Virus record (IMG/VR): IMGVR_UViG_3300049484_000199
Coordinates: 1-27,197 of that record
Strand: one strand, 5' to 3'
Length of the DNA stretch: 27,197 nucleotides
Source: a virus
The notes below the pieces were generated by a model. It saw nothing but the letters and a program-made list of their open reading frames with translations. It searched no databases and was not told the origin of the DNA. The position numbers and the translations under genes are program-made. Shown in pieces: positions 4,740-23,287 of this stretch (position 1 is its first letter; every line of letters begins with the position of its first letter).

Positions 4740-6476
4740 CTAGAGTTCACACGCGCCTGTCGCGCATCCAGCGGACTCAATGTCAGTAACAGCAGACTCA
4801 ACCACAACATCATTATCCTGTACATATTTCCTCGCTTCGTCAATAGAAATTGGGGTGAGTACTTGACCGGAGCGAGAGCCGTCGCGGTAAACCGTGACTC
4901 CTTTAATATCGTACAAGTACTCGAAGAGTATCGGAGATAGATCTTCAGCAGTGAAAGAGGAGGGAACGTTAATAGTCTTCGATACAGCCCCATCGATGTA
5001 ACGTTGACAAACAGATTGCATTTCTAAATGATCAACCGGATTAAGATCAGAAGTATCAACAACATAAGAAGGTACTTCGTTTCCAGCCTTAAAGCAGCTA
5101 CTAAGAGCAGGATGTACATAAGTACGAGTAGATACACGATCTCTCCTTATATATGCCTTAGAAAAAAGAGGTTCAATTCCACCCGTAACTTCCGGAATAA
5201 GCGAGATAGTGCCAGTAGGAGCCAATGCAAGCAGAGTAACATTCCTGATACCATTATCAGTAATATTGCGGCGAATAGTCGTAGGAAGTTTACGAACGAA
5301 TGAAGCTTTGTGATAATGTATTTTATCATAAGCTGGAAAGGCCCCCTTCTCCTTGGCGAGTTCAACTGAAGTGCGATACGCTTGGTCCCTTATTACCTTC
5401 AGTATTTCAGCAGTCTCATTGAGAGATGCTTTGCTCCCATATCTTGCTTCTTTGGCAAAGAGATACTCTGCCAATCCCATCACACCCAATCCCACTCTTC
5501 TACCATTGGTAGCCATTCTCTTGTTGGCTTCCAGTCTGTATTTGTTTACATCAATCACGTTATCCAGAAAGCGCACAGCAAGAGCTACGGTATGCTCCAG
5601 CTCCTGCCACTTGGTACGTCCCCCCACATCTACAAATGCTGGTAGTACAATTGATCCTAGATCACACACATCGTATGGCGCAAGAGCAGCTTCCCCACAG
5701 GGGTTGCACCCCATGATGGGAGCAAAGTAATAGCTGTTGTTCTTGATGAGGTTATCCCATACAAGTATTCCCGGCTCACCACACTTTACCATGTTCTCCA
5801 GTATCTTAAACCATAACTTCTTGGCAGACACAGTTTCATGTGCCTTTCCTCTGAATGTTAAGGGCCAAACTGAGTCGGCAAGTACGCATTCAAGAAAATA
5901 CTTAGTAATATTAACGCTAATGTTAAAATAACTGATAGTACCATCAACCAATTTGGCGTCGATAAACCTTTGAATTTCGGGATGAGCAACATCACAGGAG
6001 CCAAGAGAAGCAGCCCTGCGGCTACCCCCAGATTCAATGCATGCCGCCAGTCCATCAATTGCGCGCATAAAAGATACCAGTCCACTGGATTTACCTCCTA
6101 TACCTTTTATAATATCTTGGCTAGGCCGAAGAGAAGAAAAATTAATACCCACCCCGCCGCCATCAGCCCACAATTTAAGAGCGTTTGACGCACAGTCCCC
6201 GATCTCGTCGATGGAGTCCCCGATGGGGAGGTGGTAACAGTTGAAGAGTGATCCTCTAGGTCGTCCGGCATTACGCAGTATCCTCCCTCCTGGTATGAAT
6301 TTAAGATCGTAAATGAGTTGAGAAAACTGTTCAGCATAAGATGCTCTTTGTTCCAATGGTTCTGCCATGGCGATGGCATTCCCAACTCTAGTAGCCAGCT
6401 CCATCCATTCATTTTCCTCTCCTTCTACAAGGTATCTGTTACGTACTATTTGCTTTGCGCTTTCGCTTAGTATCAT
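4740..6476 (-). CDS. nrdJ: Class II (B12-dependent) ribonucleotide reductase
   Basis: The product has 578 residues and converts ribonucleotides to deoxyribonucleotides for phage DNA synthesis. Visible are the first redox Cys (C80, LFNCYHLP), the active-site NPCGE (N258, C260, E262), the partner Cys (C271, DVCDLGSI), the PTGT loop and the class II marker VTVYRDGSRSGQ near the C-terminus. The protein ends with a Cys pair (GCATGACEL) that would accept electrons from thioredoxin. No separate radical-generating subunit gene is nearby, which agrees with cobalamin dependence. The start at 6476 has GAGGAGGAG upstream; it overlaps the resolvase gene by 38 bases. It is shorter than many cellular NrdJ proteins. 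Confidence 0.93.
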   Translation of the reverse strand: MILSESAKQIVRNRYLVEGEENEWMELATRVGNAIAMAEPLEQRASYAEQFSQLIYDLKFIPGGRILRNAGRPRGSLFNCYHLPIGDSIDEIGDCASNALKLWADGGGVGINFSSLRPSQDIIKGIGGKSSGLVSFMRAIDGLAACIESGGSRRAASLGSCDVAHPEIQRFIDAKLVDGTISYFNISVNITKYFLECVLADSVWPLTFRGKAHETVSAKKLWFKILENMVKCGEPGILVWDNLIKNNSYYFAPIMGCNPCGEAALAPYDVCDLGSIVLPAFVDVGGRTKWQELEHTVALAVRFLDNVIDVNKYRLEANKRMATNGRRVGLGVMGLAEYLFAKEARYGSKASLNETAEILKVIRDQAYRTSVELAKEKGAFPAYDKIHYHKASFVRKLPTTIRRNITDNGIRNVTLLALAPTGTISLIPEVTGGIEPLFSKAYIRRDRVSTRTYVHPALSSCFKAGNEVPSYVVDTSDLNPVDHLEMQSVCQRYIDGAVSKTINVPSSFTAEDLSPILFEYLYDIKGVTVYRDGSRSGQVLTPISIDEARKYVQDNDVVVESAVTDIESAGCATGACEL

Positions 6477-6939
6477 TAAACCACTCCTCCTCAGGAATAA
6501 CATCACCATACGTGAACTTGTGCTTCTCTGCCCATACTCCATAGGTAGTTTTGCTGCCAGATGCTATCTTATTCTTAGCCCGTTCGAATACCACAAACAC
6601 TTTCTTGCTAGGGTTGCTTTTCTGAATGGCTAGAAGTTTCTTACGAACATCCTTTGTCATCTTTCCTTTAACTTCTATTACAAAGTCTCGTCCCGGCAGG
6701 ACAAAATCAGGGGTGTAGTGGGCAGGTTCGTACTGGTAGGTCCATTTCTCTGATTCGTAATCGTACTTAATTCCGTTTCGTATCAACCACGAAGCGCATC
6801 TTATTTCTGCTATGCTCTTCATCCCAGCCAACTTAGCATATTTACGTGCGTTGGCTGAGTGTTTATCTTCTCTTGGTAGAGCGTCCCACCTTTCTAATAC
6901 GTCTACCGGAGATTGTAGTTTCCCCTTCTTTTTGGGCAT
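6439..6939 (-). CDS. T7 endonuclease I-like Holliday-junction resolvase
   Basis: The product has 166 residues (T7 gp3 has 149). It resolves branched DNA by paired nicks, as a dimer. The PD-(D/E)XK active site is present with near-T7 spacing: E45 in SIAEIR, D78 in HYTPDF, E89 and K91 in VIEVKG. The downstream GSKTTYGVWAEKH also matches the T7 GSPTSYGEFCEKH region. Start ATG 6939 lies nine bases after GGAGG; the next in-frame ATG upstream is too close to it. It sits between the Cys-rich genes and the reductase, in keeping with phage DNA metabolism. Confidence 0.9.
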   Translation of the reverse strand: MPKKKGKLQSPVDVLERWDALPREDKHSANARKYAKLAGMKSIAEIRCASWLIRNGIKYDYESEKWTYQYEPAHYTPDFVLPGRDFVIEVKGKMTKDVRKKLLAIQKSNPSKKVFVVFERAKNKIASGSKTTYGVWAEKHKFTYGDVIPEEEWFNDTKRKRKANST

Positions 6940-7063
6940 TAGATCCATTCCTCCATAAGTAACACTTATCCTTACTGTTTCCAGTAAAGTTAGAACACTG
7001 CACACATGGAGCCTGTTCTGCCCCCATGTAAAAACAATAAGTACAATCTAATGAATATGTCAT
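6863..7063 (-). CDS. Small zinc-ribbon-like protein (66 aa)
   Basis: From ATG 7063 (GGAGA site upstream) the product carries CxxC pairs at C7/C10 and C20/C23 and a further C34, a pattern of small phage zinc-binding proteins. The C-terminus is basic. The frame runs 77 bases into the resolvase gene, so the tail is dual-coding. No function is recognised. Confidence 0.5.
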   Translation of the reverse strand: MTYSLDCTYCFYMGAEQAPCVQCSNFTGNSKDKCYLWRNGSNAQKEGETTISGRRIRKVGRSTKRR

Positions 7064-8663: not shown

Positions 8664-9572
8664 CTATAGTACTTGTCCATCTAGTATAATCTTGTTACGT
8701 ACTTTAAAGTATCCTGTTACAGGGTTATATTTTACTGTTGCGAATCCGTGAATCCAGTTGTTCATGGGCTGGTATGCTTCGGACAGTTGGCACAGTCCTC
8801 CTACCATCCATGAACCATCATGCTTTCCATCCAGTTTCTTGAAGGTAAAGTGCTGTGCTTGATGATGGTGTCCGAAGATAACATTCCTGTGAGTTCTAAG
8901 ATACATGGTACGTGCTAGGTTGATTCCATCCCAAGACATCTTAACCTCATGCCCATGTAGCACGAACAACTTACCCAATGATAGGGGGCTCTGCCCATTA
9001 GTAAGCAGGGAGATGTTGGACACGTACTGTATGTCCAGATCATCCAGTTTCAACAAGGTAGGAACAGTCAGTTCAGGCAACCCATACAGTTCTGGAGCCT
9101 TGGTGTAGAGATAGCGGGCAAGACGAGCCTCATGGTTTCCTTCAAGATAGATAATGCGTTGAAGTGGAAACACATTTCTCAAGTTTGTAAGGTATCCTTT
9201 TACTATGGCGATTTCATCTGAAAAGTTAGCTCTCCCAGGTGCATCTTTCCAGAAGGATACGTGTTTGAAGTCAGCAAAGTCCCCCCCTATGATAACGTCG
9301 TCCGGTTGCCATTCCTTTGCGTAATTTATCGCCACTGCATAGGCGTTGAGATCATGGTATGGAATGTGCGGGTCGTACATGAGAAACGCCTTGCGCTCCC
9401 CTCCCTGCACCGCATGCACGGATCTCCGGCGCATCATGCGGGACTTCCATTCACCTGCGTACCTACGTACAGATCTCTCAGAACAGAACAGCTTTCGTGC
9501 TATTTCAGCGTTGTTCATGTGCGTAGTTTCGGCAAGATGTTTTATCTTGTCAGATAACAGATCATCCATCAT
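8664..9572 (-). CDS. Metallophosphoesterase with N-terminal helix-turn-helix
   Basis: The product has 302 residues. The N-terminal 50 residues contain a helix-turn-helix-like stretch (NNAEIARKLFCSERSVRRYA). The rest is a calcineurin-type phosphoesterase with all five metal-binding motifs: DPH (67-69), GGDF (97-99), GNHE (145-148), HGHE (206-209) and GHHH (234-237). Such enzymes hydrolyse phosphoesters of nucleotides or nucleic acids using two metals. The HTH suggests DNA binding. The start overlaps the coiled-coil peptide gene, with AGGAGG upstream; adjacent ATG codons leave a one-residue uncertainty. Confidence 0.88.
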   Translation of the reverse strand: MMDDLLSDKIKHLAETTHMNNAEIARKLFCSERSVRRYAGEWKSRMMRRRSVHAVQGGERKAFLMYDPHIPYHDLNAYAVAINYAKEWQPDDVIIGGDFADFKHVSFWKDAPGRANFSDEIAIVKGYLTNLRNVFPLQRIIYLEGNHEARLARYLYTKAPELYGLPELTVPTLLKLDDLDIQYVSNISLLTNGQSPLSLGKLFVLHGHEVKMSWDGINLARTMYLRTHRNVIFGHHHQAQHFTFKKLDGKHDGSWMVGGLCQLSEAYQPMNNWIHGFATVKYNPVTGYFKVRNKIILDGQVL

Positions 9573-9708
9573 AGTTGAGTAACCTCCTGAGGCGTCCTTC
9601 AATTTGTTTTCTATGTTCCACTTCCTCTTTCAATTTCTCCACCTCCTCTTCCAGTTTCTTTATCTTCTTCTTTTGACAAGCGATAATAAAAAATTGATTA
9701 ACTGCCAT
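9562..9708 (-). CDS. Short coiled-coil peptide (48 aa)
   Basis: The frame begins after AGTAGGAGG and overlaps the phosphoesterase start by 11 bases. After a short hydrophobic N-terminus (QFFIIACQ) the product is a highly charged Lys/Glu heptad coil. It could be a small membrane-tethered peptide. The function is unknown. Confidence 0.55.
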   Translation of the reverse strand: MAVNQFFIIACQKKKIKKLEEEVEKLKEEVEHRKQIEGRLRRLLNYDG

Positions 9709-10967: not shown

Positions 10968-11150
10968 TTATAACATCCCTTTAGATTTTAACAAAGATCC
11001 CAATTGGATCAACGCACCTTCCCTACCCAAAGTTTCGCAGGGACATCCTTTAGAAATGTTCCCCAGCTGAGAAAAATGGCCGCATAGTTCCTGACATGGC
11101 TGGCTGGTCTTCTCCTGGTTGAACTTGTTCTTCCCGAATGGGCAGGTCAC
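10968..11150 (-). CDS. Small Cys-rich protein, GTG start
   Basis: The frame is open to 11231, but the best start is GTG 11150, six bases after GGAG; an ATG six bases earlier (11156) is too close to that site. The 60-residue product has CPFGK, CQELC and CPC elements (C3, C19, C23, C36, C38), a metal-binding pattern. It overlaps the upstream phosphoesterase gene by 101 bases. The function is unknown. Confidence 0.55.
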   Translation of the reverse strand: MTCPFGKNKFNQEKTSQPCQELCGHFSQLGNISKGCPCETLGREGALIQLGSLLKSKGML

Positions 11151-11742
11151 ACTCATCTCCGCCAGTGTCGTGTTCAGGTAAAACGTCATTAGATGCTGCA
11201 GCTTCGATTTGGTGGTAGTCAAGGTTTGCATCTTTCATTCTCCCGTTTTGGGTTTTGATCAAAGTGTCCACTTCCTCGAAAGAAAGGGGACGGTATTCAC
11301 CGACAAGTTTCTTTGCGTTGTCCACACCCACATCCAACTGATTAAACATGGGTACTAACGTACCATGCGAGTGCCCGTGGAGATTGTACCCCCATACCCA
11401 CGATCTGAAGGGATAGTGGCAAACGGTAACGCGTGTTCCATTTATGGTTCTGTGGTAGATGTGGTCCATTTTAGTTTTACTCCAATGATCATGATTTCCC
11501 TTCAAAAATATCTTACTACCATTTAACTGATTAGTAAACATCTTCTCCACATAAGAATGACTACCTTTGTTAGCCCATGCAAAATCTCCAGCAATTACAA
11601 TAACATCCCCACGTCCAACTACTAAGTTCCATTGTTCTATTAAATACTCATTCATGGAATTAACGTACTTAAAAGGTCTATCGCAATGTCTTATTATATT
11701 ATCATGATCAAAGTGAGTATCAGCGGTAAACCACCACATCAT
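11050..11742 (-). CDS. Metallophosphoesterase (calcineurin-like)
   Basis: The product has 230 residues. The phosphoesterase motifs are intact: DTH (8-10), AGDF (51-54), GNHD (82-85), CHYP (108-111) and HGHSHG (122-127). This is the short phage-type family of about 170 residues that removes phosphate groups from nucleotide or nucleic-acid substrates. Residues after about 165 form an acidic, Gln-rich extension outside the usual domain; that part overlaps the following Cys-rich gene, so it may exist mainly because of the shared coding. The start follows GGAGGTGGG and is coupled to the sigma-like gene. Confidence 0.88.
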   Translation of the reverse strand: MMWWFTADTHFDHDNIIRHCDRPFKYVNSMNEYLIEQWNLVVGRGDVIVIAGDFAWANKGSHSYVEKMFTNQLNGSKIFLKGNHDHWSKTKMDHIYHRTINGTRVTVCHYPFRSWVWGYNLHGHSHGTLVPMFNQLDVGVDNAKKLVGEYRPLSFEEVDTLIKTQNGRMKDANLDYHQIEAAASNDVLPEHDTGGDECDLPIREEQVQPGEDQPAMSGTMRPFFSAGEHF

Positions 11743-12368
11743 CCCACCTCCTTTTTTAGACGGGTTAAAAGCCTATGCTTTCGGATAGCCAGTACAACAT
11801 GAGACACATGATAGCGTCTGCCCAAGGAACGCAACGATTGCACGTTAAATAGTATGGGGTAAATGTGCTTGTGAAAAATAGCCCTGTCCAGCTTGTCGGA
11901 CTTTTTAATCACCCGTTTAAGTTTCTTAAGTGTATCCAAGTGGATACAAGCTCCCTCCAACGATTCCGGCGCACAGACTAACATGGAATCAATCGAAATT
12001 GTATCGACAGATTTCCCACCCATGACAGAATCATACATTGCATTCCAACATGCAGACTGCAAATACGATACGAGATGCCGTGCTATTTTGTAATCCCCGC
12101 TCCGGATTTGTTTCCATAGGGACAAATAGCCAATTTGTACATAATCTGAAAGGGATTTGTTTCTATTTTTAAACTTAGTGGAAAACCTAGTCCCCACTCC
12201 GCGAGCTAACGACTTGTATTGATTGAATATTTCCACTTCCTCCACCGTGGCTGGAGGTTCGTCATAGTGGGAAACTTCAATTAATCCAATAGCTTGCTTG
12301 CGATGAAAATAACAAAGGGGTTTGCCCAACGTTTGTTGTGAGCACCCCTCTATAGCGCAGGAATACAT
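11739..12368 (-). CDS. Sigma-factor-like protein with N-terminal zinc motif
   Basis: The product has 209 residues. Residues 4-22 form a C-x4-C-x9-C-x2-H motif suggestive of zinc binding. Residues about 45-115 match sigma-70 region 2 in pattern: a helix with LARGV, then SLSDYVQIGYLSLWKQI (the DL.QEG.LGL element) and a long helix. The C-terminus (about 178-205) has a region-4-like helix-turn-helix (SLRSLGRRYHVSHVVLAIRK). Sigma factors direct host RNA polymerase to promoters; a phage version could switch on later genes. No phage RNA polymerase is in the window. The match is to a pattern only. Confidence 0.6.
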   Translation of the reverse strand: MYSCAIEGCSQQTLGKPLCYFHRKQAIGLIEVSHYDEPPATVEEVEIFNQYKSLARGVGTRFSTKFKNRNKSLSDYVQIGYLSLWKQIRSGDYKIARHLVSYLQSACWNAMYDSVMGGKSVDTISIDSMLVCAPESLEGACIHLDTLKKLKRVIKKSDKLDRAIFHKHIYPILFNVQSLRSLGRRYHVSHVVLAIRKHRLLTRLKKEVG

Positions 12369-12832
12369 ACTACCCCCCCTTGCATACTATAGACTGTATT
12401 TTTTTGGTTTTGTTCATATTTATTTTTCAACTCATGCTGTAACTCTGTGATATAACCTATAGTTCTGACGATCTCATCTTGATAAAACTGAAGCATGGCG
12501 AGATCTCGTATGTGACGAGATTTTCCCGTCACTAAAATGTCGTTCCAGCCGTTAGATCTTGATGCTCCTTCGGTAGAAAGTGGAGTGTTTTCATGCTGTT
12601 GGCGTAGACAGTTCAGTTCAGACAACCTCGATTCCGCATCTGAAATGCGTTTTCTCAGCCGCATCTCTGGTGTGTACTTGCGCGAACGAGTCTTCGATGC
12701 GCTCAAAGTGTGTTGCTTGTGTTTTCCCACATGGCAGAACGGACAATACGAAGTGTCCACCCACTCACGATCCCATACTGTGTGGCATTTTGTACAAAAT
12801 TTCTTAGGTGTTGCTTTCCAAGGTTTCGGCAT
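12350..12832 (-). CDS. Zinc-ribbon and coiled-coil hypothetical protein
   Basis: The product has 160 residues. The N-terminus carries CxxC pairs C13/C16 and C30/C33 (zinc ribbon). A basic segment and two helical, charged regions follow. It lies between polymerase and sigma-like genes with a 19-base overlap at the 3' end and 29 bases at the 5' end. A DNA- or RNA-binding accessory role is plausible; no family is recognised. Confidence 0.7.
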   Translation of the reverse strand: MPKPWKATPKKFCTKCHTVWDREWVDTSYCPFCHVGKHKQHTLSASKTRSRKYTPEMRLRKRISDAESRLSELNCLRQQHENTPLSTEGASRSNGWNDILVTGKSRHIRDLAMLQFYQDEIVRTIGYITELQHELKNKYEQNQKNTVYSMQGGVVCIPAL

Positions 12833-14765
12833 ACGAAATCTCCTTTAATTCCCCATAGTTAGTGCCATACTCACACTCTCCAGCAAGTTTCACATTCCAG
12901 TTTATGTTAAAATACTCGGATATGTATTGTGCCAGATTGTTTGAAATCAGATAACAGAGCTTAACTACCCGTTTTAATTCATCTTTGGGACAATCCAGTA
13001 CAATGGAATCATGTACTGTTAAGATGAGCCGGGACTGTAGACCATTCTGACGTAATCCTCGTCTGACCAGAACGACGACGAGTGGTAATATATCTCCCCC
13101 CGCAAGACCCTGAACGGGGTAATTCTTGATTTGTCGCTCGTTGTATTCCATATTAGCATGTTGGAATTTAGTTTTATGAAACTTGAATCGTCTCCCCGTA
13201 GCCAGACCCATACTTCCTCGTATGATGGTTCGAGCAATGTTATCGTCCTGCCATTGCTTAAGTCCTTCGTACTTATTATAGAACTCGTTAACAATACCCT
13301 TCCACTTTCCTTTAGTAAACGAAGGCATTTTAGGGTCAGAAAAGAAGCCATGCGCTGTTCCCCCATAAATCATTCTAAAGTTGAACACCTTTGCATAATC
13401 CCTGTTTATCTTGCTTTCAGGATCATGTTTATCTACAAATTTTAACCCCATAATTCCCTTGCACGCTTCTATGTGCTGGTCAACCCCTGTGTTGACCTCG
13501 TGCATCATTACTCTATCTTGAGAGAGCCAAGCGGCAGCTCTCCATTCAATCTGGGAGAGGTCAAATTGTACAAGAAAGTGTAATCTTGGAGATATACACC
13601 GCTTAATTGGGGATGTCGACCCCCTAGGTAAATTCTGAGAATTGGGATCGGATGATGACAATCTGCCTGTAGTCGTGACACATTGATTGAAACGTGGGTG
13701 TATGATACCATCATACGTTTTAGAGAGAAGGCCAGTCCCTTCATTTTTCCCCCTTAAGGTTTCCTTTACCTTGTCTATTGAAGAAATGAGCAATAGTAAC
13801 TTCTTAACTTTACGACGAACGGGCGTGTCTTTAGGCAGAGCATCAATGGCCGATTTGTCTGTAATATAAACACCTTCTCGCTTTGTTTCCTGTCGGACAG
13901 GCACAGGAAAGATACCCTGTAGAGACACTTTTTCCTTGTACGTCTTCTCATAATACCTCGTCTCCGGTTTAGTTTTGAGAGTCTTCGTAACCCAGGCAGT
14001 GCTCGACACTTCCACACTACCCCCGAAGAGAGCGGCTGAGAGCTGAGGGCCAGATCTAATGTTAAGGCGAGGTTCCCCAAAAATTTCAATGAGTTCCGTG
14101 TGTATAGCCTTGCTATTCTTATCGTATTCTTCATACATTTCCTCCGCGAGTTTAACGTTAAATCCGAATCCACCCACCTCCATATCTGAAAGCGACAATG
14201 TAAACTCGTTCTGTAAATCCACGAGTGCCGTCATGCCCTCTTCCAGTACTTCCTTAGCTTGTGCCATGTACAAAAGAGCAGTCAGTTCCACATCTCGTTT
14301 AGCGTAATGTTCCAATAAATCCAATGGGATATCGCATGTATGCATGCCCCGTTCCCACATTACAGACAAAGTACGGTCTTTAGACCCCAACCCACGATGT
14401 TCGCACACTTCATCCAACCCCCAAGATCTCTGGGCATCCTGCCCAGCCAGTAGATACTCTGTGAGCATGGTACACCAGATCTTAGGCAGTTCAAAATCAA
14501 CACCATAGTACCGGAGAATGTTCAGGTCGTGCTTTAAATTGTGGCCCACTACAAGGTCAGCCTCGTTGACCAATCGTTGAACCTGAGCGATAATGGGTGG
14601 CATGGGAGCCGGTTCTACCTCTTTATGCGTAACCCACAGGACAGATCCCTCTTGGTGGGCCCCATCCACAATCCAGCAATAGGCTATGCAGGATAGATAA
14701 AACCCCTCTTCCCACGGGCGCATGATCCCGTACTCATGCTCTGTGTCAAGAATCAGAATCTTCAT
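12804..14765 (-). CDS. polA: DNA polymerase, family A with 3'-5' exonuclease
   Basis: The product has 653 residues and should be the phage replicase. The proofreading domain is intact: exo I DTE (7-9), exo II HNLKHD (75-80) and exo III YAKRD (154-158). The polymerase domain shows TTGRLSSSDPNSQNLP (365-380), motif A DLSQIEWR with D402, motif B R455/K459/F463/Y467 in RDYAKVFNFRMIYG, and motif C VHDSIV with H585-D586. There is no 5'-3' exonuclease domain, as in T7-type polymerases. Motif A has Trp where cellular enzymes often have Leu (EWR rather than ELR). The neighbours are helicase and primase. Confidence 0.95.
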   Translation of the reverse strand: MKILILDTEHEYGIMRPWEEGFYLSCIAYCWIVDGAHQEGSVLWVTHKEVEPAPMPPIIAQVQRLVNEADLVVGHNLKHDLNILRYYGVDFELPKIWCTMLTEYLLAGQDAQRSWGLDEVCEHRGLGSKDRTLSVMWERGMHTCDIPLDLLEHYAKRDVELTALLYMAQAKEVLEEGMTALVDLQNEFTLSLSDMEVGGFGFNVKLAEEMYEEYDKNSKAIHTELIEIFGEPRLNIRSGPQLSAALFGGSVEVSSTAWVTKTLKTKPETRYYEKTYKEKVSLQGIFPVPVRQETKREGVYITDKSAIDALPKDTPVRRKVKKLLLLISSIDKVKETLRGKNEGTGLLSKTYDGIIHPRFNQCVTTTGRLSSSDPNSQNLPRGSTSPIKRCISPRLHFLVQFDLSQIEWRAAAWLSQDRVMMHEVNTGVDQHIEACKGIMGLKFVDKHDPESKINRDYAKVFNFRMIYGGTAHGFFSDPKMPSFTKGKWKGIVNEFYNKYEGLKQWQDDNIARTIIRGSMGLATGRRFKFHKTKFQHANMEYNERQIKNYPVQGLAGGDILPLVVVLVRRGLRQNGLQSRLILTVHDSIVLDCPKDELKRVVKLCYLISNNLAQYISEYFNINWNVKLAGECEYGTNYGELKEISYAETLESNT

Positions 14766-15036
14766 ATTTCACCATAATTTTACCGAAGCGGGAATTAGGA
14801 TACTCTTTTACTATTTCAAATCCACATTTTATATCATAACTACCTACCGCCATACTTAATTTAGGTGTCCCTCTAAATTTCATACACCATAGTCCAGGAA
14901 TATACCTATCCCCGCTATGAGTCATTATTCTCTCACCAAAATCTTGAACTTTAATCTGTGTTTCAATTCCAAATCTCTGATAAATTCTAAAAGTAAACGC
15001 CCTCCATCCCTTTATTTTACCTAAACCTCGTGCCAT
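14746..15036 (-). CDS. Hypothetical protein (96 aa)
   Basis: ATG 15036 is preceded by AAAGGAG at good spacing and gives 96 residues. The product is basic and aromatic, apparently beta-rich, with no recognisable motif. It overlaps the polymerase by 20 bases and the helicase by 16 bases, so it belongs to the replication operon. The function is unknown. Confidence 0.7.
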   Translation of the reverse strand: MARGLGKIKGWRAFTFRIYQRFGIETQIKVQDFGERIMTHSGDRYIPGLWCMKFRGTPKLSMAVGSYDIKCGFEIVKEYPNSRFGKIMVKYEDSDS

Positions 15037-16268
15037 TCGCACTTCTCCTTTATGAAATGAGTGGTAAACTTACAAGATGACCCATCCATAAGTTTATTCT
15101 TGGATACGTGTATGAATCGAAGGTCTTCTTTTGTGGGGTCATCCACAACTCTACCAATTCCAATTGCGTAATCCAGTTCTCCCTGCATGGATACCCTGCT
15201 TCCATACATGTCGCTCAATTTCAACCATCGTCTATTCTCTGCTTCTCCCACTGCTTGCGCCAGTACCAATATCGCAGTGTTCCATTCTTTCGCCTGTTCT
15301 CTGTAAAAATTGAACAGGTGCTGGGTCTGAGTTACTTCCGAAATATCTGACGATTTCCCCTCCATAGTCACTTTCGTTCCTTGATCTATAATAAGAATTA
15401 ATGGCTGATACTCTTTCAGTAAACGTGAAACTTGCTGTGTCGTCGTAATGTTGTCGAACAATTTGATCCTGCTCCAGCCCATATCCATCCGGGAAGTTGC
15501 GGAGTTTACGGGATCTGCGGTTATTTCTTGTCGTGTTTTGCACAGCATGCCTTGAGTCATGCGAAATGCGATTCGAGCCGCGCTCTCCTCGTTCCCAGCG
15601 TATATTAGATTCTCTGCAGTGCTCTTGAGCTGTTTGGCGAAGTGCACGAAGTTGGCTATCCCGAAGCTCGTTTTCCCGCTGTCTACATAAGCGAAAATAG
15701 TCCCCAGCGATCCCCGTATAATTGGCCCAATTGTTCTGTTCAACGTAGGGCATAGCCAGTTAATTCCTCCTTCCGGATAAACGATTTGAGTCAATTCCTC
15801 CACCGATTTCTCAAAGGGCATGAGGCTATCGCTTTGCCCAGGTGGGTTCCTCATACGGGACACGTAATCTTTTATCTCTACATCAAGGGTTTCCAGCACT
15901 CCATATTTGTTACCTTCCACTACAGGTATTAGCTTAGAAACAATAGCCCCTGCAAAATGCTTCTCCATCATTTGCTCAAGCAAATCCCTCGCTACGTCTG
16001 GGTTAGCTTCTGTTTCAAAAATAGAGGATATGATTTCACGATAAACCCCCCTATCCTTGTTGTTGGGGTACTGCACATCAAAGAATGTGAGCAAATCCCC
16101 CCTCGTTATTGCAAGAGAATCATACTTGCCATAGAAATCTGCAATTAGTCTACTGACAAGTTTCAACTCTCGTTCCAAACTCTTTAACGACTGTGTATAG
16201 ACATAATATAGGTCAAAGAGTTGTCGGTCAGCGCAGAACAGTTTAAGAACAGCCAGTTCACAACTCAT
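15021..16268 (-). CDS. Replicative DNA helicase, DnaB/RecA-like
   Basis: The product has 415 residues. An N-terminal helical domain (about 1-150) precedes a RecA-fold ATPase. The P-loop reads AYVDSGKTS (193-201), with Ala in place of the usual first Gly, preceded by GSLGTIF. Walker B is LILIIDQ (290-296), and the following Gln/aromatic segment (ILVLAQAVGEAE) matches the H3/H4 region of DnaB. It would unwind the fork as a hexamer with the adjacent primase. The stop and start overlap small neighbours (ATGA upstream). Confidence 0.85.
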   Translation of the reverse strand: MSCELAVLKLFCADRQLFDLYYVYTQSLKSLERELKLVSRLIADFYGKYDSLAITRGDLLTFFDVQYPNNKDRGVYREIISSIFETEANPDVARDLLEQMMEKHFAGAIVSKLIPVVEGNKYGVLETLDVEIKDYVSRMRNPPGQSDSLMPFEKSVEELTQIVYPEGGINWLCPTLNRTIGPIIRGSLGTIFAYVDSGKTSFGIANFVHFAKQLKSTAENLIYAGNEESAARIAFRMTQGMLCKTRQEITADPVNSATSRMDMGWSRIKLFDNITTTQQVSRLLKEYQPLILIIDQGTKVTMEGKSSDISEVTQTQHLFNFYREQAKEWNTAILVLAQAVGEAENRRWLKLSDMYGSRVSMQGELDYAIGIGRVVDDPTKEDLRFIHVSKNKLMDGSSCKFTTHFIKEKCEWHEV

Positions 16269-16495
16269 GGTTCCTCCACAACTTCATGTATATCTGATGG
16301 TACTAATTTATATCGAATTAGGTCTGTACTACCAGGATGATATGAATAATTATGAAGATATCCTCTGTTTCCGTTTGCTGCGCAAGCAGCTACGCTACTT
16401 TTGCCATCTGGTATAAAAGTGTTCACATAAACACTTGTTGTCCTGCTATCACGAGTAGGTCGATACAATCCAAATTGATATAATCTAGTAATCAA
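16265..16495 (-). CDS. Hypothetical protein, TTG start
   Basis: The start is TTG 16495, eight bases after GGAGG; there is no competing ATG in the right place. The 76-residue product is rich in Tyr, Arg and Ser with no motif seen. Its stop overlaps the helicase start (ATGA) and its start overlaps the primase stop by 11 bases. It may be a loader or linker in the replication operon, but there is no evidence beyond position. Confidence 0.6.
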   Translation of the reverse strand: MITRLYQFGLYRPTRDSRTTSVYVNTFIPDGKSSVAACAANGNRGYLHNYSYHPGSTDLIRYKLVPSDIHEVVEEP

Positions 16496-17387
16496 TTTGC
16501 TTACCTCCCAGAATAGAAACTATAGTTTTAGCGTTGTACTCTTTTGGATCACGAGTTGTGTGTATCACTTTTACATGCACACCCAACGAGCTACACTTTG
16601 CTGCGTAGGTTACTTTTGTTTGTAGCATATTTCCATCCAACCAAAGAAATGTACGGTACGGCCTCAATCGCACGATAATGTGCGTGGGCAGAAACGTAGT
16701 GTTTAACGCCAACGTGTTGAACCCCGTTGCTTCATGCACACGTATGGCAGAAATAACATCTTCAACTATGACAAGACAATTACTCTCACTCATGAGATGG
16801 TAATAGAAATACTTGGTTGTCTTATCCCTCTGCGTATGCCACTTGGGTATTTTCAACTCCCTTCTCTCCGTCTTTGTTCGTTCCACTACATCACGACCAA
16901 GCCAGCCAAGTAACTTGGTGGCACGATCTCCCCCAGACAACAGGATTGTGTCATAGATAGGCACAATGAGCCTCTTGTACGATGGAGACCATCCCAACCC
17001 ATACTTCGCCATAGTATCTAATTTGAAATGAAACTTCCAAAGCCAAATATACACTTCTGACGGTATGTTGGGCAGTATCTCTGTGGGACTAAGAGATATC
17101 ATATCCTGCGGCAACTGAGACACAGCCATAGCTTTGTACGTAGTGGCAATGTTGATGGTATCCCATTGCTTTAGCACATCCTTCGGGCTACATCTATCCG
17201 CTGATACAAAACCAGTAGTTGACTTGCATCTAAAGCAATAGTATAGCCATCCAGTCGTGGTACGAGTTATGGTCAAAGCCGCATCTTTACCATCCGAACA
17301 ACCCACGTGCACAATGCGTACTGTATCACCCAACGTCCAGCGATGCTCATCAATCGCTGTTTGTACTTCCTCCGGTATGCTGCTCAT
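16485..17387 (-). CDS. DNA primase with TOPRIM domain
   Basis: The product has 300 residues. Near the N-terminus H27, C30, C51 and C54 (VHVGC ... WLYYCFRC) make a zinc-binding module as in bacterial and T7 primases. The C-terminal half is a TOPRIM fold: the catalytic Glu in CLVIVEDVISAIRV (E209) and a DxN in place of DxD in FLWLDGN (D251). It should synthesise RNA primers for the lagging strand with the helicase. The start has GGAGG upstream. The weak second TOPRIM motif is unusual but seen in short phage primases. Confidence 0.82.
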   Translation of the reverse strand: MSSIPEEVQTAIDEHRWTLGDTVRIVHVGCSDGKDAALTITRTTTGWLYYCFRCKSTTGFVSADRCSPKDVLKQWDTINIATTYKAMAVSQLPQDMISLSPTEILPNIPSEVYIWLWKFHFKLDTMAKYGLGWSPSYKRLIVPIYDTILLSGGDRATKLLGWLGRDVVERTKTERRELKIPKWHTQRDKTTKYFYYHLMSESNCLVIVEDVISAIRVHEATGFNTLALNTTFLPTHIIVRLRPYRTFLWLDGNMLQTKVTYAAKCSSLGVHVKVIHTTRDPKEYNAKTIVSILGGKQIDY

Positions 17388-18564: not shown

Positions 18565-19818
18565 CTACATGTATCGGTTAGCGAGCAGTTCATCTGTTTG
18601 TGCGTCTATAATTTCCTGTTTCTCAGCCGGAGTGAGTTTACCAAAACTCTTGTCCACCTTTGTAGCGTCCTCAAAAGTTTTACGTGCTTTGTTGGCTATA
18701 GCAGACAACGAAACCGCTATAATAGTACCTGTTGCATCTTCAAATATAGATCCACAAGTCGCGCATATAGTGATTTCGGACGACCTCTCATACGATCCAA
18801 TGTATTTGTCTTCGAAACAGTTGGGGCAAATGAGGAAATTACTACCTCTGGATTTGATGTAGTCAAGGCTCTTGTCTCCCCATTCGACTGTTCCATCTTC
18901 TTCAAGGACGCAGAAGAGTTGTGCTCCAGTAAGTACAGATGAATGAGCCTCCTTTTCTTTGTCTTTTTTCTTCGCTTTACCTTTGCGTATTCTTGCTACG
19001 GCAAAGTTTACTGTTCCATCTTTGTTGGACGCGTCTGCCACCTTGGCAAAATCAGCCGTATGGGCGAGAGAAACATCATCTTCCCCCCACCGTTTCCACG
19101 TGTTGCCCACCATGCGCCCAAATTCATTAGCGTATCCACCCTTGTAGTCGGCCCAATTCGGGTTCTTCACACTTTTCTCAACTGCGCCTGCACTATAGTT
19201 TCCAGTAAATCCCATACCGGAACTCGCATAATAGATTGTCGAAGTTTTGGGCTTGAATGATGCGTTGGAAAAGAACCATCCTCTCTCCTGCTGCCACGTG
19301 TAGCCAAACTTCCACAACTTATCCCCTTTGGTTACTATCCACCGACTACCCCCATCGAAAATCTTTTGCAAGATGCCTGGTATTTTATCATGCACCCCCA
19401 GTTTGTCTATAATGGGTGCGACAAAATCCCGTACAAATATCATGGTGTCTGAATAATCCCCCTCCCCCCTACCCACAATTCCGTTATGAAATAGAATACT
19501 CTCACACGCAAAGTTAACTGCTCGCATCTCATCCAGATTTTCAACCACGGGAAAAGGATGAGTGTTACCCTCATCTTTTAATCCCGCTGTGCCGATACGA
19601 AAGTGACAAATAACAGAATCATCCAATTGAAAATCTCGCAACTTGTACGCTTTCCAGAACTTCTTAAATGTCATGAACCCCTTGCGTACTTCCCACAAGT
19701 TACTTTCTTTGTTATACCATGCAAATCCTGCGCCATCATCATTGTTTTCCCAACAAGCAGCCAATGTAATTTTATCCATACTGGCCGTACCTGTTGGTTT
19801 ATACGCAATGATACACAT
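18565..19818 (-). CDS. Class II glutamine amidotransferase-like protein
   Basis: The product has 417 residues. Cys2 (MCIIAYKP) is the expected N-terminal nucleophile after Met removal. Other class II amidotransferase elements are present: CHFRIGT with R74 (71-77), THPFP (86-90), FHNG (110-113) and YSDT (122-125). The enzyme would release ammonia from glutamine. The middle is Gly/Trp-rich, and a zinc ribbon lies near the C-terminus (C331/C334 and C352/C355), which is not part of the usual domain. It ends four bases after the amidoligase start side of the operon, strongly suggesting it feeds ammonia or removes Gln in the same pathway. Confidence 0.82.
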   Translation of the reverse strand: MCIIAYKPTGTASMDKITLAACWENNDDGAGFAWYNKESNLWEVRKGFMTFKKFWKAYKLRDFQLDDSVICHFRIGTAGLKDEGNTHPFPVVENLDEMRAVNFACESILFHNGIVGRGEGDYSDTMIFVRDFVAPIIDKLGVHDKIPGILQKIFDGGSRWIVTKGDKLWKFGYTWQQERGWFFSNASFKPKTSTIYYASSGMGFTGNYSAGAVEKSVKNPNWADYKGGYANEFGRMVGNTWKRWGEDDVSLAHTADFAKVADASNKDGTVNFAVARIRKGKAKKKDKEKEAHSSVLTGAQLFCVLEEDGTVEWGDKSLDYIKSRGSNFLICPNCFEDKYIGSYERSSEITICATCGSIFEDATGTIIAVSLSAIANKARKTFEDATKVDKSFGKLTPAEKQEIIDAQTDELLANRYM

Positions 19819-19821
19819 AAA

Positions 19822-21465
19822 TTACTCTCCCTTTTCCAAGTTAAGGTTAGCACCGTTCTTCTTCAAGTTCTTGCGAAATACTCTGCGCAACTCAGAGTTA
19901 ATGTTTGCGTCTCTAATCCAAACTGCGAGGTTACGATACTTATTAGCCACGTGTCTTTGAGCAAGCCATGCGAGAAACAGAGGAACTTTCTGATCCCTCA
20001 TGGATGTGTCAGTTGTGTACTCGTAAAGTGCATACACAAATTCGATGTTCTTGCAAAACGCTATGAAGTTTGTTGTGGAAGCAAAGAAACGCACCTCTAT
20101 GGTTGAGGCTCCTGTTGCATTTACTGCAGAATGACGCTCACTTGATGCGTTTCTCTTTGTCTTGGCAAATTTAGCCATGCCCATCGTATCAGTTCCACGA
20201 AATGAAGCAAAACTATTTTCCCCGCCTCTTTGGGACAAGTCCACGATAAACGACCTGTTCTCAGGGGAATAGATAAACTTGACAAATTTATACAATTGAG
20301 CGTACCCAAATGCTTTCTTGCTCATGTGGATGTGAATACCACACGTCGTGTCAGCCCTCAGGCCATTCTCGTAGGCTGTTTTAATAAGCACCTTCAACGG
20401 TTCTTTGTGGGACTTGTAAAACTCCCATGAGAATGGATGCGTAACAACTTCAAACCCGTTGTTCAAACTTCCATCCCGTTTGAAATAAAGCATACCATCA
20501 GGCATGATGGAGGAGAAAATATCCGCATGAGTTTCATGGCTTCTCTTTGGGCATGATCCACCTGAATGATTTTCCAACTCCCACTCAAATCCAGTAAGTA
20601 ACGAATGTTCTTGCACTTTCTCCAGCTTACTGTCTATTTTAAAGCGAGCTGCTGGTTTGTAGTTATACTGCTTTATCTGGTGCTGATCAGAAAAGCACTG
20701 GGAACACATTCCTCTGCGATCTCCCACATTTCGAGCAGAATCAAAGAAATGATTTCCGCAAGAAGCGCAGACATACAGGGAACTAAAGCAAGAAGGGCAG
20801 AGAGTATTTGTACGCGACAGCCCGTTAGATAAATTTAGCGTTATCTGGTTCTCAGTTCCCACGTTATAAATGTTATCGCACCTATTGCACCTGTAATAGC
20901 GCTCCGCAAAGCATGCAGAGCAATACATTCTTCCGTCATGTACTGTGCAATCTCTTGTGTGTTTAACCGCGTTGCACTCCATACACACATTGTATTTTGC
21001 CCTGAAACACGTTGCACACAAGGTACGTGTTTGGTTCTGGTACACAATTGATCTGTGTGGGATAACCTTGTGCAACTTACCACAATCCACACAGTACGAA
21101 TTTTTATTACGAGCAATGGCAGTTCGTGGGATTGTAGTTATCTTATCCCTGTTGTAGTTAGTAATCGATTTGATTACTGACTTAATACTCTCCACTTTCT
21201 CCAACGTAAGCACGACAGGAGGGGAATCTTGAGCAACCTCACCCTCGTCAATTTCTCCAAATAGACCCCCTCTCCTCATATGTTGATGCATCGTGTTGTA
21301 GTTTAGACGAGCATCATAGTTCCGTGGCAAAAACCCACCAAACATGGCGGGAACTGTCGCCATGTACAGCGCAAATCCGTCCAACTCCCGTTTCACGCGG
21401 CATTTATAGCACGCGCAATTCGTATGCTGGCGGTTCCCCAAAAATGCAGATACGTTGACTGGCAT
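19822..21465 (-). CDS. Amidoligase with N-terminal zinc-ribbon repeats
   Basis: The product has 547 residues. Residues about 125-257 contain four to five Cys pairs (C125/C128, C150/C153, C161/C164, C182/C185, C193/C196, C223/C226, C233/C236, C254/C257), apparently tandem zinc knuckles. The catalytic half has the amidoligase signature of the glutamine-synthetase fold: GFEWE (292-296), KRDGSL (329-334), GFEVVTHP (337-344), CGIHIHMS (375-382), RHSAVN (444-449) and TIEVRFF (455-461). Such enzymes join a carboxylate to an amine using ATP. Its neighbours on either side are an ATP-grasp ligase and an amidotransferase, the association described for amidoligase clusters. Substrate is unknown. Confidence 0.85.
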   Translation of the reverse strand: MPVNVSAFLGNRQHTNCACYKCRVKRELDGFALYMATVPAMFGGFLPRNYDARLNYNTMHQHMRRGGLFGEIDEGEVAQDSPPVVLTLEKVESIKSVIKSITNYNRDKITTIPRTAIARNKNSYCVDCGKLHKVIPHRSIVYQNQTRTLCATCFRAKYNVCMECNAVKHTRDCTVHDGRMYCSACFAERYYRCNRCDNIYNVGTENQITLNLSNGLSRTNTLCPSCFSSLYVCASCGNHFFDSARNVGDRRGMCSQCFSDQHQIKQYNYKPAARFKIDSKLEKVQEHSLLTGFEWELENHSGGSCPKRSHETHADIFSSIMPDGMLYFKRDGSLNNGFEVVTHPFSWEFYKSHKEPLKVLIKTAYENGLRADTTCGIHIHMSKKAFGYAQLYKFVKFIYSPENRSFIVDLSQRGGENSFASFRGTDTMGMAKFAKTKRNASSERHSAVNATGASTIEVRFFASTTNFIAFCKNIEFVYALYEYTTDTSMRDQKVPLFLAWLAQRHVANKYRNLAVWIRDANINSELRRVFRKNLKKNGANLNLEKGE

Positions 21466-21476
21466 ACACCCTCCTC

Positions 21477-22463
21477 TTACCGCAGATTGTTAATGAATTC
21501 AATCAGTTGAGCTGGTGATATAGTACTCTGTGAAGAAATACGCTCAATGATTAAGAGTTTGTGTGTCAAGTTCAAACTGCGGGGAGCAGTAGGAACAGGC
21601 GTCTCCTGTACAGGAACAGGAGGAGGTATGCTTGTTGCGAGGGTAATCGAAAGATCCTCATCATAAAAATGAGTATCCGCTAACTTGAGAAATGCGTTGC
21701 AATAGAACTCACGAGTCCGGTCTGTTGTGAACCCTGGAGCAAGGTTTGCCTCAATAAACCACACAGGCAGTTCTCCAGAACCGTTTTGTACGATGAAATC
21801 CACTGCTGCGAAGTCGTAACCAAGTGTTTGTATTGCCTTTTTTGCATACTGCTTGGCTCTCTTGAACACGCCTGTATTGCTTTCGTTCATCTCTATGTTG
21901 CTAAAAGATCCACCCTGATGGTGGTTCCAGGTAAGCTGGGCCTCTCCATCTGGGTGTGTGCGCTTGGACACAAGCCACTCCTCAACGGGGAGCCACTTCA
22001 CCCCATGCACACGCAACTCGTACCTGCGGTTGGTGATGCGCTTTTGCAAGTATTGTCGGGATGTTACCGCTTGTCCTGTGTATGGTACAATGCCACGTCC
22101 ACCAAACGAAAGCAACGGTTTAACGATAAATCCAGGTAATTCTGCATTTGAGGTGATTCTGCTTGCCCTACACTCAGGAACAGGCACACCCACTGCTCTA
22201 ACCTGCTCACAACATTGCAATTTATTGCCAAAAATGCTGTTGTTCAACGTAATTTCCCTACGATCCGTTCTCCATGTATTTGCTCTAACTGCCCAATCGA
22301 GTTGTTTCTCCCCAGTCAACCCATAATTCACAATAATATCACGAGTTTGCGCAAACCTTGGCCTGTCGTTTAGCAGCAGGGAGTCCACCCCATGTTGTTT
22401 AAGGTGTTTGTGTATCTCTTTGTAGTACGTACCCCTGCCTATCCACCCGATTTTCTTATTCAT
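21477..22463 (-). CDS. ATP-grasp ligase-like protein
   Basis: The product has 328 residues. The ATP-grasp elements are IVKPLLSFGGRGI (113-125), YELRVHG (148-154), the acidic DFAAVDF (217-223) and the metal-binding FIEANLAPG (236-244). This is the RimK-like organisation: it activates a carboxylate as acyl phosphate and couples it to an amine. The C-terminus (about 285-328) is Pro-rich then helical. The gene ends 11 bases before the amidoligase start. Together with the amidotransferase they form a likely peptide-bond-forming set. Confidence 0.85.
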   Translation of the reverse strand: MNKKIGWIGRGTYYKEIHKHLKQHGVDSLLLNDRPRFAQTRDIIVNYGLTGEKQLDWAVRANTWRTDRREITLNNSIFGNKLQCCEQVRAVGVPVPECRASRITSNAELPGFIVKPLLSFGGRGIVPYTGQAVTSRQYLQKRITNRRYELRVHGVKWLPVEEWLVSKRTHPDGEAQLTWNHHQGGSFSNIEMNESNTGVFKRAKQYAKKAIQTLGYDFAAVDFIVQNGSGELPVWFIEANLAPGFTTDRTREFYCNAFLKLADTHFYDEDLSITLATSIPPPVPVQETPVPTAPRSLNLTHKLLIIERISSQSTISPAQLIEFINNLR

Positions 22464-23014: not shown

Positions 23015-23287
23015 CTACCCTATACATTCAGGGGAGATAATTGCTGCAGCCTCTGCTGGAGGGGGTATAACTGGCATAGATTTTGATTTTACAGTGCGTC
23101 TCGTGTGCGATTTCCCATCCCTAAACGGAAAACAGGGGCAAGAGACGATATGACAGGTTCGAACTTCAACAATTGAACCACCCGCGCAATCAAGGCAATT
23201 GAACCTAATTGCTCGTGACGGAGACAGATCTCTCGTCTCCCACACCTCTTTACCGTTGAATAAATATCTAAATGTGTGTTTTACCAT
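23015..23287 (-). CDS. Small Cys-cluster phage protein (90 aa)
   Basis: The product has 90 residues. The central region carries CxxC (C31/C34), then C45, C50 and C52 followed by PFRDGK, a pattern of a small phage zinc-binding family (CxxC...C....CPxxPFRxGK). The C-terminus is Pro-rich. A protein or nucleic-acid binding role is likely; the exact role is unknown. Confidence 0.65.
   Translation of the reverse strand: MVKHTFRYLFNGKEVWETRDLSPSRAIRFNCLDCAGGSIVEVRTCHIVSCPCFPFRDGKSHTRRTVKSKSMPVIPPPAEAAAIISPECIG

Follow-up and report, generated by a model that had tools for sequence, protein, structure and literature searches.

A phage amidoligase-amidotransferase gene pair with a RimK-like ATP-grasp ligase gene is a divergent variant of a described cassette

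Relation to described phage cassettes

In LUZ24-like phages, phiEco32, Salmonella 7-11, RIO-1 and PSA-HP1, a set of amide-forming enzymes has been named the peptidoglycan modification cassette and proposed to block superinfection (PMC5498523, PMC11945000, PMC10580990). Modification of the cell wall against superinfection is also the function favoured in published proposals (PMC5498523, PMC10580990). Here we analyze a related gene set in the IMG/VR virus record IMGVR_UViG_3300049484_000199 (27,197 bases, referred to in full as the window). Three intact open reading frames (ORFs) on the minus strand encode, in this order, a RimK-like ATP-grasp ligase, a zinc-module amidoligase and a class II glutamine amidotransferase. 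The first two are separated by 11 bases and the last two by 3 bases, confirming an earlier reading made from the sequence alone (the sequence-only reading), which had described three consecutive, tightly spaced genes. The gene set is real and intact, is probably functional, and is a divergent variant of the published cassette; it does not amount to a new type.

The window resembles the LUZ24-type cassette in that amidoligase, class II amidotransferase and RimK-like ATP-grasp genes occur together, clustered beside replication genes. LUZ24-type cassettes are larger, however, with an added COOH-NH2 ligase and, in several of them, a γ-glutamyl cyclotransferase. Neither family (PF14395 and PF06094, respectively) gave a match at E 1 in the window record, which is possibly a fragment. 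In addition, the gene order differs, and the LUZ24-type amidoligases mostly lack an N-terminal zinc array and form a clade separate from that of the window protein. In Mycobacterium phage Marvin and the OM43 phages MEP401/402, a zinc-bearing amidoligase gene is again directly followed by the amidotransferase gene. Unlike the window, these phages contain no detectable RimK-like ATP-grasp gene in the stretches read, and their proteins are only 22-32% identical to those of the window. Two IMG/VR contigs (L062 and L140) match the window's order of ATP-grasp, zinc-clade amidoligase, amidotransferase and then primase, with amidoligases sharing about 30% (L062) and 26% (L140) identity with the window protein. 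L062 differs in having two ATP-grasp genes and an extra gene between amidoligase and amidotransferase.

The peptidoglycan-amidating MurT-GatD of Staphylococcus aureus combines a Mur-ligase fold with a class I amidotransferase, and is not a relative of the window set, in which a glutamine-synthetase fold is paired with a class II amidotransferase. The two are alike in principle: in MurT-GatD, a glutaminase subunit feeds a separate ATP-dependent ligase (PMC3267633).

Families, folds and catalytic residues of the three proteins

The amidoligase gene (19822-21465, minus strand, 547 residues) passes the gathering cut-off of PF12224 (Amidoligase_2; 26.2 versus 22 bits). A model of its catalytic domain (residues 292-525; 19891-20592, minus strand) adopts the glutamine-synthetase/GCS2-like fold and is most similar to YbdK-type ligases (Z scores are 11.3 and 11.2), followed by glutamine synthetases (Z about 10) and the Pup ligase PafA (Z 9.4). 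Twelve candidate active-site residues (Glu-294, Glu-296, Lys-329, Asp-331, Ser-333, Glu-339, His-378, His-380, Arg-413, Asn-449, Glu-457 and Arg-459) are invariant among 22 diverse amidoligases. The N-terminal part contains four tandem CxxC-n-CxxC modules (C125-C257; 20695-21093, minus strand), and each of their 16 cysteines is found in 15-20 of the 22 aligned sequences. The sequence-only reading had described tandem zinc knuckles at this position; tandem zinc-type cysteine modules are indeed present, but there are no CCHC knuckles. Nor are the modules LIM domains by the Pfam cut-off (11.1 versus 22.9 bits), and other LIM similarity is weak. The Cys positions place 6-7 residues between consecutive modules, compared with the 2-residue linker of LIM domains. 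Among 125 amidoligases with a placeable catalytic motif, 79 have at least one CxnC pair before the motif and 46 have none.

The amidotransferase gene (18565-19818, minus strand, 417 residues) is weak in Pfam, scoring below the curated cut-off of PF13230 (15.9 versus 23 bits, E 0.006), and its class II membership rests on a phage-family profile, which matches the GlmS glutaminase domain in the Protein Data Bank (PDB) with E 3.5e-10. Cys-2, Arg-74, Asn-112-Gly-113 and an SDT motif align with relatives and with GlmS, and His-87 likewise aligns with the relatives. Two CxxC pairs (C331, C334, C352 and C355; 18754-18828, minus strand) form a putative C-terminal zinc ribbon. Of 124 amidotransferase relatives, 101 have at least two CxnC pairs, mostly close to the C terminus, making this feature more general than the amidoligase array. 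Candidate zinc parts thus recur in both the amidoligase and the amidotransferase, which fits a role in docking. As the amidotransferase lacks a synthase domain, a separate partner would have to use the ammonia.

The ATP-grasp gene (21477-22463, minus strand, 328 residues) matches phrog_2599 (ribosomal protein S6 glutaminyl transferase) with E 3e-21, and a profile built from 22 relatives finds RimK and α-L-glutamate ligases as its best PDB matches (E 4e-16). The predicted model (mean predicted local distance difference test score 78) is closest to RimK (PDB ID 5zct; Z 19.9, root mean square deviation 2.9 comparing 243 residues). ArgX bound to LysW (PDB ID 3vpb; Z 19.4) and RimK with RpsF are also among the nearest solved folds, a group that comprises RimK and the LysX/ArgX α-L-glutamate ligases. 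The ATP-binding lysine and metal-site residues of the superfamily are kept (Lys-81, Lys-115, Asp-222, Glu-238 and Asn-240), and the modelled fold supports assignment as a carboxylate-amine ligase. The protein scores far below the curated TIGR00768 cut-off for the RimK family (16.9 versus 143.4 bits), and we therefore call it RimK-like and do not file it as RimK.

Family matches, fold models and conserved residues thus support the enzyme identities and intact active sites assigned by the sequence-only reading, and all motifs it quoted are present. The structure comparison it had suggested, with RimK and known amidoligases, placed the ATP-grasp model nearest RimK/ArgX and the amidoligase model nearest YbdK/glutamine synthetase. 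Neither of the outcomes it had named as fatal was found: the catalytic residues are kept, and the genes are clustered in other phages.

Occurrence and gene neighbourhood of the pair

A scan of viral contigs with a single protein returned nothing, and profile scans were needed. We surveyed viral contigs by such scans, sampling loci either by amidoligase (80 loci) or by ATP-grasp; the amidotransferase alignment was too diverse for scanning. An amidoligase relative is encoded in 585 of 599 pattern matches in viral contigs. The amidoligase-sampled loci contain 80 amidoligase genes with another gene behind them, and in 73 cases that gene is the amidotransferase; across all loci the count is 102 of 128, with gaps mostly between -14 and 24 bases. 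Relatives of the window genes lie side by side in more than 100 other loci, far beyond chance, and no surveyed locus contains a fusion among the three domains. In three loci (L103, L109 and L125) we observed two tandem amidoligase genes ahead of a single amidotransferase gene.

A RimK-like ATP-grasp gene is present in only 2 of the 80 amidoligase-sampled loci (L062 and L140, both in the window's order), and in 1 of 30 loci with enough flanking sequence. Loci sampled by ATP-grasp are mostly of the LUZ24 type, with COOH-NH2 ligase family and amidotransferase genes nearby. In a quick maximum-likelihood tree of 64 amidoligases, which has several long branches and of which we rely only on the deep split, LUZ24-type and zinc-type amidoligases separate with 98% support in the Shimodaira-Hasegawa-like approximate likelihood ratio test. 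The window protein falls in the zinc clade, only some members of which are accompanied by an ATP-grasp gene. A zinc-clade amidoligase thus occurs together with an ATP-grasp gene in the window, as it does in L062 and L140. The clustering expected by the sequence-only reading is borne out in other phages, and its gene order recurs in these two contigs, but the three genes are not a constant trio. What is conserved is the pair of amidoligase and amidotransferase, to which the ATP-grasp gene is a sporadic, optional addition in the zinc-bearing clade.

Both pair genes are also found in 66 of 80 loci of bacterial genome contigs. Amidoligase matches number 8-9 in one Ruminococcus flavefaciens assembly (L154, genome G002). 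Of 198 genomes sampled in its family, 21 contain a match, and several copies in the family have in-frame stops. A gene family recurring at the Ruminococcus amidoligase loci resembles serine recombinases by sequence, and a mobile-element location is therefore likely. Every named host of a carrier is a bacterium; mycobacteria, clostridia, OM43 and Acinetobacter are among them. The pair also occurs on a contig binned as Lokiarchaeota (L142), together with SSB-like, DnaB-like and packaging-like genes as read from their translations. We rejected an archaeal home for the pair, given these phage-like genes and the lack of a match in all but one of 195 sampled genomes of the phylum (194 without a match); L142 is likelier a misbinned phage contig. 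A single match among the 195 phylum genomes, located on a contig with phage genes, lends weak support to a link with peptidoglycan.

In the window, the three genes are part of a long block on the same strand. A purine-rich, Shine-Dalgarno-like stretch lies directly upstream of each of the three starts, and the end of a small upstream ORF overlaps the ATP-grasp start by 8 bases. Further upstream, a small Cys-rich ORF (CLDC...CHIVSCPC; 23015-23287, minus strand) is without a Pfam match and possibly encodes a zinc protein. Three small ORFs separate the amidotransferase gene from genes with PHROG matches to DNA primase (16485-17387, minus strand) and, downstream of it, a DnaB-like helicase (15021-16268) and a DNA polymerase (12804-14765). 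Beyond these we noted, all on the minus strand, a possible phage-encoded sigma factor (11739-12368; sigma-70 region 2 match of 24.7 bits against a Pfam cut-off of 24), two calcineurin-like metallophosphoesterases (8664-9602, with weak N-terminal helix-turn-helix matches, and 11050-11742), and a T7-like phage endonuclease I (6439-7005, E 5e-24) adjoining the gene for the large subunit of ribonucleotide reductase (4740-6542, 600 residues, E 3e-125). Weak Pfam matches such as FlxA and Mltc_N were set aside. PADLOC returned no defence-system match, a promoter scan found sites no more numerous than in shuffled sequences, and a DNA-level search of phage records gave zero matches.

Proposed function

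Starting from the observed families, folds, intact catalytic residues and adjacency of the pair, we lean toward a model of an amide synthase that depends on glutamine and consists of two subunits, the amidotransferase and the amidoligase, with the RimK-like ligase assisting, and consider that the balance of probability tilts slightly in its favour. The class II amidotransferase would free ammonia from glutamine using its N-terminal cysteine, and the amidoligase would activate a carboxylate with ATP and couple it to either the freed ammonia or an amino group. The zinc modules may keep the subunits in contact or bind the substrate, and the RimK-like enzyme would attach an amino acid to a carboxylate as part of this pathway. 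As target we consider an envelope peptide of the host most likely, in line with published proposals for related phages, and a host protein second; taken by itself, the envelope target is somewhat less likely than not. Ammonia transfer, docking through zinc, the target and any benefit to the phage are inferred. Several observations weigh against this model. D-Ala-D-Ala ligases are nearly as close to the ATP-grasp model as RimK (Z 18.6, ∼1.3 Z units apart), and the fold therefore leaves the substrate of the enzyme unfixed. A lysine kept in 21 of 22 ATP-grasp sequences is Val-165 in the window protein; Lys-167 lies two residues on, in a region where the local alignment is uncertain. The scarcity of the ATP-grasp gene described above counts here as well: being missing from most zinc-clade loci, the enzyme may act outside the step catalyzed by the pair. 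Bacterial-only hosts agree with a wall target, but a conserved bacterial protein would fit them just as well. Finally, we found no enzymatic test of any member of the set in the literature searched.

A host protein could be the target if the RimK-like enzyme adds glutamate-like residues to it and the pair amidates or caps the product, with the zinc modules recruiting the protein much as LysX/ArgX recognize the zinc-ribbon carrier LysW. RimK (5zct), RimK with RpsF and ArgX with LysW (3vpb) among the nearest folds of the ATP-grasp model point in this direction, as does the match of the amidoligase fold to PafA, a ligase acting on proteins, and host-protein modification has been proposed for other phage ATP-grasp ligases (PMC4431377). 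Fold likeness is no proof of substrate, however, with D-Ala-D-Ala ligases so near, and most zinc-clade loci do without the ATP-grasp gene; we judge such tagging rather unlikely. In a version built on the pair, zinc-module amidoligase and zinc-ribbon amidotransferase would work as a two-subunit machine for amidating or tagging one particular host protein, its zinc modules serving as substrate-recruiting or carrier elements in the LysW-LysX/ArgX manner and the ATP-grasp enzyme as a swappable extension step. We regard this version as improbable.

The genes could instead be auxiliary metabolic genes that aid nitrogen assimilation or amino-acid metabolism of the host during infection. That hosts already have glutamine synthetase and amidotransferases counts against such a role. 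For a planctomycete phage with similar genes a role in nitrogen metabolism has been proposed (PMC10945688). Conserved zinc parts and strict pairing suggest one specific product and less a general assimilation, and we consider this explanation very unlikely for the window. Less probable still, in our estimate, is modification of nucleic acids, in which the zinc modules would bind DNA or RNA and the enzymes would modify phage nucleotides with amino groups or amino acids. Zinc modules are able to bind nucleic acids, and replication genes are located directly downstream in the window and near the set in LUZ24, an Alcaligenes phage and phage HSd1, but there is no base-modification gene among the scanned ORFs of the window, a record of only 27 kb.

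Similar enzyme sets are widespread in bacterial viruses, and remodelling of the host cell wall is the usual guess for their function. Environmental phage contigs commonly carry the pair, which is also repeatedly found in gut bacterial genomes. Telling its constant two-gene core apart from the optional partners defines a small, testable unit and a single question, namely which carboxylate is amidated. As the same pair is found in Mycobacterium phage Marvin, whose laboratory host is M. smegmatis, direct testing would be feasible there.

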